DNA from: Chloroflexota bacterium
GTDB lineage: Bacteria > Chloroflexota > Dehalococcoidia > Lucifugimonadales > Lucifugimonadaceae
Direction: 5' to 3'
DNA length: 64,000 nucleotides
Assembly (NCBI GenBank): GCA_027618835.1
Contig: JAQCHZ010000008.1
Span: forward strand, 1-64,000
Within the stretch, counting starts at the first letter, position 1. Every line of letters starts with the position of its first letter. This document shows positions 28,533-37,162 of the stretch, one piece after another. The notes below the pieces were generated by a model. That model was not told the origin of the DNA, searched no databases, and saw only the letters and a program-made list of their open reading frames with translations. Position numbers and translations under genes: made by a program.

Positions 28533-28707
28533 TCGGCACCGGCGACCGAATAATTATCGGGATAAGTGACGTTTCAACTGCCGTGTTAGCGTGTACTCGG
28601 TGTAACCTTGTTCTCACTTCAGACTGGCATTGCGATGCCGACGCTGAACGCAGGCGGATCGTACTGGCGCAATGCCAATGACCAACAATTGGATGGAGGC
28701 TGACAAC

Positions 28708-29331
28708 ATGATGGAGCTGGTAATCGACAGCATTCGAGTTAGTTTGCTCAACCACCAACGCGTGGTGATTCTCAAGCAGAAGGAAGTCGATCGATACCTT
28801 CCCATATGGATCGGCCCGCCTGAGGCGGACGCTATCGCCGTTCGATTGCAAGAAGTATCTGTTCCGCGTCCTTTAACACACGATTTATTGCTCAACTCCA
28901 TTAAAGATCTCGGTGGTGTGATCGATCACATCGTTGTTTCGAGTATGGAGAACGATACTTACTATGCAACGATCGTGGTTCGGCAGGGCGACAAGACGGT
29001 TGAGATAGATGCTCGACCTTCCGATGCTCTAGCTCTTGCCGTTCGCGCTGGTGTTCAGATATTTGCGGCGCCTGAAGTAATGGACAAGTGTGGAGTGCGG
29101 CTCGACAAGGACAGTGGTCTTGCTACTGTCGGTGAAGATGCCGCGGGTGCCGCTGCTGCTCCTGCTCGTGAGGCAGGTGGTCCGGTTGGGGCCGAAGAAG
29201 CCGAGAAGCTATCGGTATTTGCCGACTTCATCGAATCGCTTGATCTGGGAGATATGGATACGCCTAGTGGCTATAACGATAATCCCAGCGGTGACAAACC
29301 GGCTGGTGACGAGCCTGTCGCAGGTGGTTAG
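28708..29331 (+). CDS. Bifunctional nuclease-domain protein (DUF151)
   Basis: A 207-residue protein. Residues 1-130 form the BFN/DUF151 domain: VVILKQKEVDRYLPIWIGP, then LLNSIKDLGG and the conserved ARPSDALALAVRAG. The C-terminal 70 residues contain an Ala/Gly-rich linker and acidic tail with a short UVR-like helix (EAEKLSVFADFIESLDLG). Plant and bacterial members have reported DNase/RNase activity. The start at 28708 was chosen because GGAGG lies eight bases upstream; the frame is open for 36 bases before it. Confidence 0.85.
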   Translation: MMELVIDSIRVSLLNHQRVVILKQKEVDRYLPIWIGPPEADAIAVRLQEVSVPRPLTHDLLLNSIKDLGGVIDHIVVSSMENDTYYATIVVRQGDKTVEIDARPSDALALAVRAGVQIFAAPEVMDKCGVRLDKDSGLATVGEDAAGAAAAPAREAGGPVGAEEAEKLSVFADFIESLDLGDMDTPSGYNDNPSGDKPAGDEPVAGG

Positions 29332-29396: not shown

Positions 29397-29557
29397 AATA
29401 CGTGGTTTCTGTCGTGTTTCAAGTTTGTTTCAGTTGTTATCACTTGAACTAGTGGTAAATTCGTCTCAAAAGACGAGCCAGTTTCGTGGAAATTTCGTTT
29501 GGATTCTGTTGCGCTTGTGATAGCATGCACAATCGGTCATTTAGAGCAGGGGGTACC

Positions 29558-29863
29558 TTGTCGGACGCACCAAAATCGCCTCCCGAGTCATCGGGGAAGG
29601 GCAATGAAAACGGTGATTTGCCAGGTTCATCCTCGGATCAAGCAACAAGTGGCTGGCCCGCAACAATTGCGTTGCTGGGGCGAGTAGGTGGGATCGGCTG
29701 GTTTGTCGGTACTTCTATAGCTCTGGGTTCGTACGGCGGGTATTGGCTCGATCGACAATTTGAAACGGCTCCTGTCCTCACAATCGTTGGGCTGGCGTTG
29801 GGCGTGGCAACTGCATTTGTTGGCATGTTCCGGCTTCTCAGCGCGATTAGAAGAGGGCGGTAA
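29558..29863 (+). CDS. AtpZ/AtpI-like ATP synthase assembly membrane protein
   Basis: A 101-residue protein with a polar Ser/Gly/Asn N-terminus and two transmembrane helices (about 40-62 and 72-95) separated by GGYWLDRQFETAP. This pattern is typical of the AtpZ/AtpI family encoded at the head of F-type ATP synthase operons, where it helps assemble the c-ring or moves Mg2+. The TTG start at 29558 is preceded by a GGGGG ribosome site; the frame extends upstream. First gene of the operon. Confidence 0.8.
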   Translation: MSDAPKSPPESSGKGNENGDLPGSSSDQATSGWPATIALLGRVGGIGWFVGTSIALGSYGGYWLDRQFETAPVLTIVGLALGVATAFVGMFRLLSAIRRGR

Positions 29864-29902: not shown

Positions 29903-31186
29903 TTGGGAAAGCTTCTTTCTAGTCCCAAACTCCTTGTCATCGCCATCGCTGCTGTTGCAGCGTTGTTAGTCTCGGTAGCCGGTGGCGCACTTGGTGCATC
30001 ATTCGGTTTGGGATTCCTTGGCGGTCCGATTCCGTTTATCTCGATCCCAGCCGAGCGAGTTGCCTTTATTGGTAGCTACCAGCTCCTGAACTCAACTGTT
30101 ATGTTCTGGTTCGGTGGGCTGATTCTTCTCTTCATCGCATGGCGAGCGGGTCGAAACGTGAAAGACGTTCCTTCCGGTTGGCAGAACCTGATGGAGATGA
30201 TTTACGAATTCTTCAGCAACACCGTTGACGGCGTTGCTGGTGGAAGGCCTAAGGCGGGCCGACGTTTCCTCGCATTGGTAACCACTATTTTCCTTGTCGT
30301 GATGATTATCAACTGGGTTGGAATTCTCCCCGGTGTTGGATCAGTAGGCCGGATCGAATCTATCGAAGAGTGGGTTCACCACCATGTCGAAAAGTTCGAG
30401 GCTGAAGTCGAAGATGCTCACCCTGCTTACACCCACGAGCAGGTCGAAGCTGCTGCGTTGGTTCACCTTCTTGAAGAGCACGGCGAGGACACGTTTGTTG
30501 CGTTCGACGGTATCTTCGTTCCGCTTGGTCAGGGCGAGCAGGCACGTGTTCCTCTGAACAAGATTATTTCTTTTACTGAGACAGACCTCCATGAGATTGA
30601 AACCGCCATCGAACGTGGCGATGATCTGTCTCACGTTGAGGCGCTTGAAAACATTCACCACGACATTGAAGCTGGTGTTGTGAAGAGTGAATTTACTTAC
30701 GACGAAGGCGGCTCGAACGAGAAAGATTACAACTTCACTGGCCAAACGGCTGGTCTGTTGGTTCCTTACCTTCGTGGTGCTTCTACTGATATCAATACCA
30801 CGCTAGCAATCGCCATTATTGCGATGTTCACGGTTCAGTTCTGGGGCTTCCGAGCTCTGGGCGTTCGTGGATACGGCGGCAAGTTCTTGGTCAACCCGAT
30901 TACGAAGGGTCCGATCGCAACATTTGTTGGTGTACTTGAGGCGTTTGGTGAGCTGACTCGAACGATCAGTTTTACTTTCCGTCTATTCGGCAACATGTTT
31001 GCCGGTGAAATTCTGCTTATAGCGATGGCGTTCTTGCTGCCGCTTGTCGGAATCATCCCATTCATGGGTCTGGAATTGTTTGTGGGCGTTATCCAGGCGT
31101 ACATCTTCGCAATGCTCACTCTTGTATTTGGCGTCATGGCAGTCGCGAGTCACGGTGATCACGACAGCCACGCGGAGGATCACTGA
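29903..31186 (+). CDS. atpB: F1Fo ATP synthase subunit a with large extramembrane insertion
   Basis: The proton-channel subunit. The C-terminal core is canonical: LLVPYLRGASTDINTTLA, then ISFTFRLFGNMFAGEI with the essential Arg, and a final helix FVGVIQAYIFAMLTLVF. At 427 residues it is about 150 longer than usual. The excess is an acidic, His-rich insertion at about residues 150-285, between VGILPGVGSV and LLVPYLRG, i.e. in a loop outside the membrane. An extra N-terminal hydrophobic segment (10-33) is also present. The TTG start is followed directly by family-like sequence. Confidence 0.93.
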   Translation: MGKLLSSPKLLVIAIAAVAALLVSVAGGALGASFGLGFLGGPIPFISIPAERVAFIGSYQLLNSTVMFWFGGLILLFIAWRAGRNVKDVPSGWQNLMEMIYEFFSNTVDGVAGGRPKAGRRFLALVTTIFLVVMIINWVGILPGVGSVGRIESIEEWVHHHVEKFEAEVEDAHPAYTHEQVEAAALVHLLEEHGEDTFVAFDGIFVPLGQGEQARVPLNKIISFTETDLHEIETAIERGDDLSHVEALENIHHDIEAGVVKSEFTYDEGGSNEKDYNFTGQTAGLLVPYLRGASTDINTTLAIAIIAMFTVQFWGFRALGVRGYGGKFLVNPITKGPIATFVGVLEAFGELTRTISFTFRLFGNMFAGEILLIAMAFLLPLVGIIPFMGLELFVGVIQAYIFAMLTLVFGVMAVASHGDHDSHAEDH

Positions 31187-31255: not shown

Positions 31256-31507
<252 letters not shown>

Positions 31508-31621: not shown

Positions 31622-32122
31622 ATGGAAGCGCTTGGAATAACACTTCAGCAGTTGCTAACTCAGTTGGTTAGCTTTCTGATCCTGTTTTTCCTGTTGTACA
31701 AGCTGGCGTATGGCCCGATTATGGGCATGCTCGACGGCCGTGCACTGAAAATCAAGGAGAGTTTGGAAGCAGCTGAGACAGCACGTCTCGATGCAGCATC
31801 TTCGGCCGAACGAGTGGAAGCAGAAATTGCTTCAGCGCGTGTAGAAGGCCAGAAGATTGTGGCAGAGTCGCGTGAAGCAGCTTCGAAGCTTCGTGAACAA
31901 GAGCAGGGACGTGCACGTGAAGAGGTCGAGACGATGCTCGAACGTGCAAGAGTTGAAATTAGTCGCGACAAAGATTCTGCTGTGGAACAAGTTCGTAAGG
32001 AATTTGCGAGCCTCGTTATCACAGCTGCTGAACGAATCGTTGAAGGGTCACTTGATGCCAAGTCTCACTCCGGCCTTATAGATAGGGTTTTGGAAGAAGG
32101 ACTTAGCGAGAGGAAGAACTAG
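31622..32122 (+). CDS. atpF: F1Fo ATP synthase subunit b
   Basis: A 166-residue peripheral-stalk subunit. One N-terminal transmembrane helix (LLTQLVSFLILFFLLYKLAY) is followed by a long, charged coiled coil rich in Ala, Glu and Arg through residue 150. It links subunit a to the delta/alpha subunits. A single b-type gene is present, so a homodimer is expected. Confidence 0.93.
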   Translation: MEALGITLQQLLTQLVSFLILFFLLYKLAYGPIMGMLDGRALKIKESLEAAETARLDAASSAERVEAEIASARVEGQKIVAESREAASKLREQEQGRAREEVETMLERARVEISRDKDSAVEQVRKEFASLVITAAERIVEGSLDAKSHSGLIDRVLEEGLSERKN

Positions 32123-32165: not shown

Positions 32166-32705
32166 ATGGCAGCAACCGGACGAAGATATGCACATGCAGC
32201 TTTCGAGCTGGCTAAAGAAAAGAACAACCTCGACCGTTGGGAGAAAGACCTGGCGCAAGCGGCTGAAGTTCTTGGCGATAAAGATGTATTGAGTTATCTC
32301 GATGCACCTCAGGTGACGGACAGCGCAAAGCTGGACGGTATCGGCAAGCTTCTTTCGGATGTTGATGTGTTGGTACGAAACTCTGTGAACCTGATGACGG
32401 TGAATCGTGACATCACTAAATTTGCGGACATGTTCCGGATCTTTAGTGAAATGGCCGATGAGCACCACGGTATCGCAAGAGCCGAGGTGACTACAGCGGT
32501 TCCACTTGATGACGCTCGACGCAGCAAAATTGCTGCACGTTTGGCGAAGTTGGTGGGGCGAGACGAAGTAAAGATTACTGAGATCGTTGATCCCGAGATC
32601 ATCGGCGGAGTCGTAGTGAGAGTCGGCGACAGGCTGGTTGATGGGAGCACTCGCACTCAGTTACGAGCATTGCGTGATTCATTGGCCGAGCGGCCAGTCG
32701 ATTAG
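32166..32705 (+). CDS. atpH: F1Fo ATP synthase subunit delta
   Basis: A 179-residue OSCP/delta subunit joining the b stalk to the top of F1. The N-terminal helical bundle starts TGRRYAHAAFELAKEKN. The C-terminal family signature is VDPEIIGGVVVRVGDRLVDG. The position between b and alpha is standard. Confidence 0.94.
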   Translation: MAATGRRYAHAAFELAKEKNNLDRWEKDLAQAAEVLGDKDVLSYLDAPQVTDSAKLDGIGKLLSDVDVLVRNSVNLMTVNRDITKFADMFRIFSEMADEHHGIARAEVTTAVPLDDARRSKIAARLAKLVGRDEVKITEIVDPEIIGGVVVRVGDRLVDGSTRTQLRALRDSLAERPVD

Positions 32706-32793: not shown

Positions 32794-34305
32794 ATGGCAG
32801 TACGAGGTCAGGACATAGCCTCTGTTATCAAGAGGCAAATTGAAGATTTCGGTGGCGACATCACTCAGGTGGACGTCGGAACCGTTATCGAAGCCGCAGA
32901 CGGTACGGCTCAGATTCACGGACTCTCAGGAGTTCGGTATTCAGAGCTGCTACAGTTCCCCGGCGATATTTTTGGACTAGCACTGAACCTCAACGAGGAC
33001 AGTGTTGGTGCGGTGATTCTCGGTGATTACATCCAAATAAAAGAGGGTGACGAGGTTCGCAGCACGGGTCGAATTATTGAAGTTCCTGTTGGTGATGCAA
33101 TGCTGGGTCGAGTCGTTGACTCACTCGGTGTGCAGATCGACGGCAAGGGCACAATCGCTACTACTGAGTCGTACCCGGTCGAGAAAATCGCCCCTGGTGT
33201 TGGTGCTCGGCAGTCGGTTGACCAGCCTGTGCAGTTTGGTCTGAAGATCGTTGATGCGATGGTTCCGGTTGGCCGAGGACAGCGAGAGCTGGTTATTGGT
33301 GACCGTGCAACTGGTAAGACTTCGGTCTGTATCGACGCACTCATCAACCAGAAGGACAGCGGAATCATTGGTGTTTACGTGGCCATTGGCCAGCGTGCAT
33401 CGAAGGTTGCGCAGGTTGTAACTCGATTGGAAGAGAACGGCGCTCTCGACAACACTGTCGTTGTTGCTGCTAACGCTTCCGACCCAGCAGCTATGCAGTA
33501 CCTTGCTCCTTATACGGGCTGCGCAATTGCTGAATATTTCATGGCTCAAGGTAAAGACGTACTCATCGTTTACGATGACCTTACAAAGCACGCTTGGGCT
33601 TACCGACAGATGTCACTATTGCTTCGCCGTCCTCCAGGGCGTGAGGCTTACCCCGGTGACGTCTTCTACCTCCACTCACGCTTGCTGGAACGAGCTGCTC
33701 GCCTGAACAAGGATGCGGGTGGTGGTTCGATTACTGCTCTGCCGATCATTGAGACGCAGGCTGGTGACGTTTCGGCTTACGTTCCTACTAATGTTATTTC
33801 GATTACCGACGGTCAGCTCTTCCTTGAGCCTGATTTGTTCAACTCGGGTGTTCGACCTGCTGTGAACTCGGGTATTTCGGTTACACGTGTCGGATCTTCG
33901 GCTCAGTCGAAGGCTATGAAGTCGGTTTCAAGCTCGCTTAAGGCTGAAATGGCTCAGTATGCAGCGCTCGTTACGTTCGCTCAGTTTGGTACAGACGACC
34001 TCGACGCCGTCACCCGACGACAGCTGGAACGTGGTGCTCGATTTACAGAGTTGTTGAAGCAGGACGAAAACTCACCATTGTCGGTTGAGGCTCAGGTTTC
34101 AGCGTTGTACGTCGCAGGCAAGGGCGCTCTTGAAGACGTTGCTGTTGAGAACGTTCGAGCGTGGGAAGCTCAGTGGCATGACTATGCTGCTGCGAATATT
34201 CCTGAAGTTCTGAAATCGATTGCTGACACAGGTGATTTGAGTGACGACGCTAAGTCGAAGCTTGATGATGCTGTTGTAGCTTTCAAGCAGACCGTCAGCC
34301 TCTAA
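32794..34305 (+). CDS. atpA: F1Fo ATP synthase subunit alpha
   Basis: A 503-residue non-catalytic nucleotide-binding subunit. The P-loop reads GDRATGKT at residues 169-176, with Ala where most alpha subunits have Gln. Other marks are [20 protein letters not shown] and [17 protein letters not shown] near the C-terminal third. Length is normal. AGAGAGAG precedes the ATG. Confidence 0.96.
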
Positions 34306-34353
34306 GAATTATTCGAACCAACTCGATAACACTGAAACTAACAGAGACAAGAA

Positions 34354-35232
34354 TTGCCGAGTACCAAGGACTATAGAGATCGAATTCGTTCGGTTTCGAA
34401 CACAGCGAAAGTCACGGGCGCAATGCAGATGATTGCAGCGTCGAAGATGAACCGTGCCCAGAATATGGTGCAGGCGGGTCGTCCTTACGCTGATCGAATA
34501 CGTGACGTGCTCGGTGATCTTGCAGCTCTCGCCGCTAAAGACGATGATGCGCCGACTGTCGACCTTTTGAAGGTTCGACCGGTGAAGAAGACTCTCGTTC
34601 TATTGGTTACTCCTGACCGTGGACTGGCTGGTGCGCTTGTTGGAAACCTCCAACGTGCTGCTGCCAAGTTCATTCATGAGGCAGAAGGCGAAGTTTCGGT
34701 TGTGACTGTTGGTCGTAAGGGTGAACGTTTTGTCACCCGAACCGGTCAGGATCTGATGGCAAGTTTCACGGTTCCCGACCGACCAACCTTGGATGACACG
34801 ATCGCTGTGGGCAAGATGCTGGTTGGCGAGTACAGCTCGGAGCGTGTTGATCGGGTCGTTCTTATTTATGCAAAGTTCATCAACACTGCTGTGCAGGAAA
34901 TTACTGCACGACAGCTTCTACCAGTCGAGCCTGCTGAGCGCGGGGACGACGATGTAGATAAGTTGGAAGAGCTCGATTACATCTACGAGCCGAGCATCAA
35001 TGATGTGCTCGCGTCGCTCGTACCGCGATACATCGAAACTCAGGTGTATCACGGAATTCTCGAAGCGTTTGCTAGCGAACACTCTGCTCGGATGATTTCG
35101 ATGCAGAATGCGACGGACAACGCTAATGAGATTGTCGAGGGCTTGACTCTCGATTTGAACAAAGCACGGCAGGAATCTATTACTGCCGAGCTTCTTGACA
35201 TCGTGGGTGGCGTGGCCGCCTTGGAAGGCTAA
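34354..35232 (+). CDS. atpG: F1Fo ATP synthase subunit gamma
   Basis: A 292-residue central-shaft subunit. The N-terminal helix carries DRIRSVSNTAKVTGAMQMIA, the central domain contains LLVTPDRGLAGALVGN, and the C-terminal helix carries MQNATDNANEIVEGLTLDLN. Both coiled-coil ends are intact. It starts with TTG. Confidence 0.95.
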   Translation: MPSTKDYRDRIRSVSNTAKVTGAMQMIAASKMNRAQNMVQAGRPYADRIRDVLGDLAALAAKDDDAPTVDLLKVRPVKKTLVLLVTPDRGLAGALVGNLQRAAAKFIHEAEGEVSVVTVGRKGERFVTRTGQDLMASFTVPDRPTLDDTIAVGKMLVGEYSSERVDRVVLIYAKFINTAVQEITARQLLPVEPAERGDDDVDKLEELDYIYEPSINDVLASLVPRYIETQVYHGILEAFASEHSARMISMQNATDNANEIVEGLTLDLNKARQESITAELLDIVGGVAALEG

Positions 35233-35235
35233 TAG

Positions 35236-36708
<1,473 letters not shown>

Positions 36709-36742
36709 AGCGGGTTAGGTTTCTAGAGGACATCAAATAGTT

Positions 36743-37162
36743 ATGGCTAAACTTCAGTTAGCAGTTGTTACCGCCGAGGGCGAAAGCTTTTCGGGTGAGG
36801 TAGATATGGTCGTTGCACCGGGAGGACTCGGTGAATTCACCGTGCTGCCTTCGCACGCTCGAATGATCTCGACTCTTGCTGCGGGCGTTCTTCGTTTTGA
36901 TCAGGGTGCCGATTCTGTTTCGCTGGCGATGTCGGGCGGTTTCTTGGAAGTTTCTGACAACCGAGTGACTGTTCTTGCCGATGCTGCTGAGCGGGACGAT
37001 GCGATCGACCTAGAACGGGCGGAGATTGCTCTGGCTCGGGCGCAGGAGCGCATCGCTGGAACGACTGCTGATATGGATCTTGAACGTGCGACGACTGCAC
37101 TTCGACGGGCTAGGGTTCGAGTAAATCTCGGTCGCCGAAGTCGCGACCGCGGTCTGAGCTAG
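36743..37162 (+). CDS. atpC: F1Fo ATP synthase subunit epsilon
   Basis: A 139-residue subunit. The N-terminal beta-sandwich has VVAPGGLGEFTVLPSHA, followed by a C-terminal helical hairpin rich in Ala, Arg and Glu. The long C-terminal helices are the form that can inhibit ATP hydrolysis. Last gene of the operon; the terminator lies 100 bases downstream, beyond a repeat copy. Confidence 0.93.
   Translation: MAKLQLAVVTAEGESFSGEVDMVVAPGGLGEFTVLPSHARMISTLAAGVLRFDQGADSVSLAMSGGFLEVSDNRVTVLADAAERDDAIDLERAEIALARAQERIAGTTADMDLERATTALRRARVRVNLGRRSRDRGLS

Follow-up and report, generated by a model that had tools for sequence, protein, structure and literature searches.

An inherited insertion, predicted to fold as an extracytoplasmic domain, in the ATP synthase subunit a of SAR202 Chloroflexota and some of their relatives

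Introduction

Few proteins in energy metabolism are under constraint as strong as that on subunit a of the F-type ATP synthase. In the solved subunits a, the turn between the helices aH3 and aH4 lies on the outer side of the membrane, beside the proton-entry half-channel. The enzyme considered here comes from a marine SAR202 bacterium of the genus Candidatus Lucifugimonas and is encoded within a 64,000-nucleotide stretch of DNA (hereafter the window); SAR202 ranks among the most common lineages in the dark ocean.

The closest solved sequence in a phmmer search (1.5e-44) is the subunit a of Chloroflexus aurantiacus (PDB 9itj to 9itx), for which there are 18 PDB entries and 36 chains, with two a-subunits (chains T and Z) and four b chains in each entry. 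The likeness lies in the core and in an extended N terminus that aligns with that of the window's protein. The aH3–aH4 loop of the C. aurantiacus protein seems to be modelled only in part in the chains on deposit (a sequence of 312 aa as against 222–266 residues in the library chains). A Chloroflexus-like gene (L118) has an enlarged loop at the same site, which at 68 residues is half the size of the one described below. It contains a pair of cysteines and lacks both the E..E..HH motif and the domain, whereas the loop in the window has the motif and the domain and no cysteine. The subunits a of E. coli and Bacillus PS3 share the core helices and the essential Arg with the window's protein; neither has the domain. 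Lineage-specific additions around the proton path are also described from Acinetobacter baumannii, where a repositioned N-terminal mini-helix is reported to relocate the periplasmic entry site; as reported there, these additions are placed elsewhere (the N terminus and a 12-residue aH4–aH5 loop) and are far smaller than the domain in the window (PMC8849298).

Results

The atpB gene and the atp operon

All of the membership features tested identify the product of atpB in the window as an F-type subunit a. The Pfam family PF00119 matches it with an E-value of 5e-44 and 151 bits (cut-off 33.9), in two stretches separated by a gap that corresponds to the insertion, and NCBIfam TIGR01131 with 107.4 bits (cut-off 102.6). 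The catalytic Arg, R360 in the FRLFGN motif of aH5, is invariant in all 75 aligned sequences, and the helix that bears it is unaltered, as an earlier note on this DNA had stated. The operon is ordinary, with the order atpI-like, a, c, b, delta, alpha, gamma, beta, epsilon (Table 1). Just 5' of it, at positions 28672-29331, lies a gene for a protein with a bifunctional-nuclease domain (PF02577).

Table 1. Features of the atp locus, with positions in the window and residue numbers of subunit a
Feature	Positions	Strand	Evidence
atpI-like gene, directly upstream of atpB	29486..29863	+	PF09527, 2e-14
atpB, subunit a, 427 aa	29903..31186	+	PF00119, TIGR01131; TTG start identical in 16/16 genus sequences inspected
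Helix aH3, residues 116-141, before the insertion	30248..30325	+	AlphaFold2 full-length model
Predicted extracytoplasmic domain between aH3 and aH4, residues 144-292 (as folded alone)	30332..30778	+	AlphaFold2, pLDDT 87.4, pTM 0.81
Insertion proper, residues 150-284, acidic, His-rich	30350..30754	+	Loop length and composition
Glu152, invariant in the insertion clade	30356..30358	+	44/44 rows
Predicted helix 154-172 with the EEWVHHH motif	30362..30418	+	AlphaFold2 model, alignment
His160, nearly invariant in the insertion clade	30380..30382	+	43/44 rows
Helix aH4, residues 297-319, after the insertion	30791..30859	+	AlphaFold2 full-length model
Helix aH5, residues 337-378, essential Arg360 at 30980-30982	30911..31036	+	Alignment, model
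atpE, subunit c	31280..31507	+	PF00137
atpF, subunit b	31622..32122	+	PF00430; closest solved b is Chloroflexus aurantiacus 9itj
atpH, subunit delta, full-length	32166..32705	+	PF00213, positions 3-172 of 172
atpA, atpG, atpD, atpC (F1 alpha, gamma, beta, epsilon)	32794..37159	+	Order of the operon

Size and composition of the insertion

From N137, the last Asn of aH3, to D296, just before aH4, the subunit a of the window has 158 residues, as against 29 in E. coli and 28–29 in the Dehalococcoides-like genes L103–L105, which gives a net excess of about 129. The earlier note had given about 130 residues, and both this size and the site of insertion stand; its further statement that the flanking peptides are adjacent in a normal subunit a does not hold strictly, as a loop of 13–68 residues is usual in the Chloroflexota sampled. 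Residues 150–284 contain 23.7% D+E, 5.2% K+R and 8.1% H and have a net charge of -25. When compared with 966 windows of 135 aa from the other long open reading frames of the 64-kb window, the value of the insertion was reached by 3 of them for D+E and by 1 each for H and for net charge. The acidic and His-rich composition noticed earlier is therefore far from chance in this protein.

Predicted fold

The AlphaFold2 model of the full-length subunit a (75 sequences) has a mean pLDDT of 74.8 and a pTM of 0.61, and its best-predicted part is the insertion, with pLDDT values of 85–96 over residues 151–200 and 92–96 over residues 221–260. Residues 144–292, when folded alone with 53 sequences, show the same secondary-structure elements as in the full-length model (scores in Table 1): a strand (149–153), two helices (154–172 and 178–193), a strand (197–201), two further helices (226–238 and 246–257) and a return strand (282–288). 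Hence, the insertion is predicted with good confidence to fold as an autonomous mixed alpha/beta domain, the first and last strands of which would rise from the two membrane helices. At most one of the 53 domain members matched any given Pfam family, and a profile of the domain retrieved nothing from the PDB sequences at an E-value of 10. Structural comparison likewise yielded no clearly similar solved structure (best Foldseek E-value 1.9; best VIA Z 3.5, rmsd 6.2, 80 residues), which does not in itself prove a new fold.

Position relative to the membrane

The core of the model superposes on the solved subunits a of C. aurantiacus (9itm_T: VIA Z 22.2, rmsd 3.8 A, 249 aligned), Bacillus PS3 (6n2d_a: Z 19.8, rmsd 2.4, 199 aligned) and E. 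coli (6oqr: Z 17.6, rmsd 4.2, 238 aligned). By homology with these, we infer that the domain lies on the membrane's outer side, above the aH3–aH4 edge of the proton-entry half-channel, in agreement with the outward orientation proposed earlier. SAR202 cells are described as monoderm and devoid of peptidoglycan genes (PMC10444878), and the domain would thus face the outside directly. In six Chloroflexus-like genes (L096, L106, L107, L113, L115 and L118), the aH3–aH4 loop contains two cysteines, the first of which is always 14 residues past the Asn anchor; the pair likely forms a disulfide on the outer face, consistent with an extracytoplasmic loop.

Inheritance and phyletic distribution

A search of relatives recovered the gene from 56 of 60 genomes. 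The insertion is carried by 18 of the 19 genomes of the genus, including that of the window (G208 gave no match, and in G205 the gene is split over two contigs). Among the carriers is the single-contig complete genome CP046147.1 of the cultured Candidatus Lucifugimonas marina JH1073 (SAR202; locus L126, with the contig coordinates of genus member G213); SAR202 strains of this genus have been brought into culture (PMC10444878). An artefact of assembly or annotation, which the earlier note had considered together with absence from close relatives, is refuted by these genomes, has nothing in its favor, and can be dismissed with near certainty: the insertion is real.

The length of the loop is nearly constant within the genus (146–160 residues, with 158 in 12 of 18 rows) and ranges over 102–182 residues in the other genera of the family and 87–126 residues in those further members of the order whose loop is of this type. 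Over the phylum sample, it spans 13–182 residues, values to be read as a range rather than a frequency, since the loci were the best Pfam matches together with genes picked by eye, many of them by open-frame length. This sample comprises 113 measured loops (L061 and L062 duplicate L063 and L064, and L001 and L002 duplicate the window's own locus); seven further loops (L005, L006, L008, L016, L023, L025 and L091) had no motif anchor from which to measure. From the associated sequence set A3, L143 was missed by the search pattern, and L149 and L078 were excluded as they were cut too long by it. In a more even sample of the order (98 genomes, 94 matched and 92 measured, the fragments in G294 and G321 being omitted), the net insertion, taken against the Pfam model, is below 20 residues in 34 of the 92 and at least 45 in the other 58. 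The gene in the window has 130 on this scale, a value exceeded by one genome of the order with 154.

A FastTree phylogeny of 111 core sequences, built without the loop and rooted at the midpoint, brings the long loops with the motif together in one group and places those members of the order that have short loops with Dehalococcoides-like sequences. A comparison across the Chloroflexota, which the earlier note had proposed, thus indicates that the insertion is clade-specific and inherited. The order itself contains two kinds of subunit a, a long-loop N-W type (L033–L078) and a short-loop A-W type (L079–L090), suggesting either that the gene was transferred or that, as far as this gene is concerned, the order is not a natural group. 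Long loops lacking the motif are found elsewhere, namely in L081 (118 residues), L085 (143), L096 (110) and L098 (90). These probably arose independently, and the aH3–aH4 site seems to be a hotspot of independent loop growth.

Searching 119 members of the class with the domain profile matched 11 genomes, 7 of them outside the order. The latter seven matches, all in atpB, comprise three strong ones (family f7, E-values of 1e-10 to 1e-15) and four weak ones (1e-4). Judged by eye, six of the seven loops have a similar succession of elements, with L210 being less clear. In the window's own genome the profile matched a single place, and the domain found no match among phage records, on which grounds a paralogue or a mobile domain was rejected. 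We also considered a link with rhodopsin, which scored over the cut-off in 5 of the 98 genomes of the order (G098, G223, G268, G309 and G326) and in neither G000 nor G213. All five have long loops, but so do 53 genomes without rhodopsin, and there is thus no general link.

Conservation and selection

We examined 44 rows of the insertion clade, which were selected by kinship and loop type rather than by the motif, the counts being unfiltered. Two residues at the base of the domain stand out, with Glu152 present in all 44 and His160 in 43; their invariance may be purely structural. Five other histidines (H159, H161, H173, H188 and H193) are 83–100% conserved in the genus versus 12–38% in the 16 rows from other genera of the family, where H159 is found in 4 and H161 in 6. 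The trimmed loop carries a net charge of -12 to -28 in the 18 rows of the genus; in the 26 rows from other genera, this charge ranges from -3 to -26 (median -10). Over all 44 rows, it correlates weakly with GC content (Spearman -0.33, p 0.027, uncorrected for relatedness). The strong acidity and His-richness are thus features of the genus and not of the domain family.

Among 16 sequences of the genus, the median dN/dS is 0.14 for the insertion and 0.06 for the core, ratios that are rough as dS is near saturation; pairs with saturated dS were dropped, leaving 50 (insertion), 88 (core) and 114 (N terminus) of 120. The insertion is under purifying selection, even though its protein sequence changes about four times as fast as that of the core (dN 0.287 versus 0.072). 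What selection keeps is the fold and the base of the domain and not its charge. Vibrio-type subunits a (L165–L202) begin with a YIxHHL motif (e.g., GYIEHHL) resembling the EEWVHHH of the insertion, a possible case of convergence at the proton inlet between this gamma-proteobacterial N-terminal motif and the insertion.

Discussion

The extra outer domain on the subunit a of this SAR202 clade and some of its relatives is real and inherited. As to what it does, the explanation we tentatively put first, while holding it at somewhat less than an even chance, is that of a clade-specific, fixed extracytoplasmic element that caps the proton inlet or forms a vestibule to it, a function that we infer from the place of the domain. 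In a cell with one membrane and no peptidoglycan, such a cap would wall off the mouth of the channel from the open medium and fix or stabilize the aH3–aH4 turn, and protons might be guided on a defined route along its conserved base, past Glu152 on the rising strand and His160 on the first helix. The strong acidity of the genus would then be a lineage-specific surface property added onto the cap. Its position and topology, the predicted fold, inheritance, purifying selection and the two conserved residues all support a cap, and the mini-helix of A. baumannii indicates that parts of the channel mouth can set the route of proton entry. Counted against it is the fast evolution of the domain relative to the core. 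Close relatives in the same order function with loops of 29–36 residues, which makes the domain dispensable for the reaction. A bolder version, namely that the subunit a of SAR202 and related Dehalococcoidia gained an extracytoplasmic domain with a novel fold and a dedicated role in gating or conditioning the entry of protons, we consider unlikely; to our knowledge, no F-type ATP synthase has an outer-side control element of this kind.

Next in order comes a docking platform, an alternative that is on the unlikely side but deserves serious attention. Here, the domain would organize supercomplexes by binding a respiratory complex, a second ATP synthase, the S-layer or another such partner at the outer face. 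A domain that is folded, extracytoplasmic and without a listed known fold, the surface of which evolves fast over a conserved base, would suit such a role, as would the S-layer-like outer layer seen in one cultured SAR202 strain (PMC10444878). However, the operon is ordinary, an unsystematic look turned up no partner gene, and the length of the loop is highly variable among relatives. Neutral elaboration, likewise a serious rival, would mean that a length-tolerant turn grew by drift and became a domain without a new function; the graded lengths across the phylum and the apparently independent motif-less long loops both favor it. The near-constant length in the genus, purifying selection, the conserved Glu152 and His160 and the confidently predicted fold speak against drift, and we rate it as improbable. 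Slightly less probable again is the proposal of the earlier note that the acidic, His-rich surface serves as an antenna that collects or buffers protons, or other cations, for the inlet. In its favor are the extreme composition in the genus and a net charge that is negative in every one of the 44 clade rows. Nevertheless, this charge falls to -5 in several genera with large domains (L055, L056, L057 and L060) and weakly follows GC content, most of the histidines are not conserved outside the genus, and sea salt at the outer face of a monoderm cell would be expected to screen the charges. As a general function, proton buffering or funneling is hence a weak explanation, given the variation in charge across the clade and histidines that are mostly a genus-level feature.

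The two remaining alternatives are very unlikely. The EEWVHHH motif could be taken as a metal site, with the HHH cluster and a nearby Glu binding a metal and regulating the inlet, and a Glu/His/Asp metal site is reported to cap the other, cytoplasmic channel in Pseudomonas aeruginosa (PMC12796488). Against this, only one of the three histidines is conserved, H159 and H161 being retained in a minority of the family rows outside the genus. Marginally fainter still is the prospect of an enzyme with two a-subunits, in which the domain would bridge or separate two inlets; the pointer to it is that, among solved structures, the nearest relative is the enzyme of C. aurantiacus with its two a and four b chains per entry. 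The delta subunit argues otherwise. In SAR202 it is of the full-length OSCP type, with all 56 matched genomes (59 searched) covering about the whole family model, whereas the C. aurantiacus delta (9itj_S, 157 aa) is shorter than the one in the window and only the C-terminal part of the SAR202 protein, residues 104–171, aligns to it. An intact N-terminal domain of delta is reported to limit the stalks to one (PMC12229609), and the full-length delta of SAR202 thus argues against the two-a-subunit design. On our reading, a shortened and divergent delta would define the two-a-subunit type, and the form of delta should help to predict in which Chloroflexota an enzyme with two a-subunits could occur.

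Among the open-licence papers in PMC, we found no published account of this insertion, and the main text of the SAR202 cultivation paper contains no mention of ATP synthase (PMC10444878). The additions reported near the proton inlet of subunit a, such as those in Acinetobacter, are small compared to a folded domain of 130 residues. Being present in a clade with a cultured member, the domain offers a natural experiment on how protons arrive at the inlet of an enzyme with its outer face in sea water and presents a concrete target for cryo-EM.
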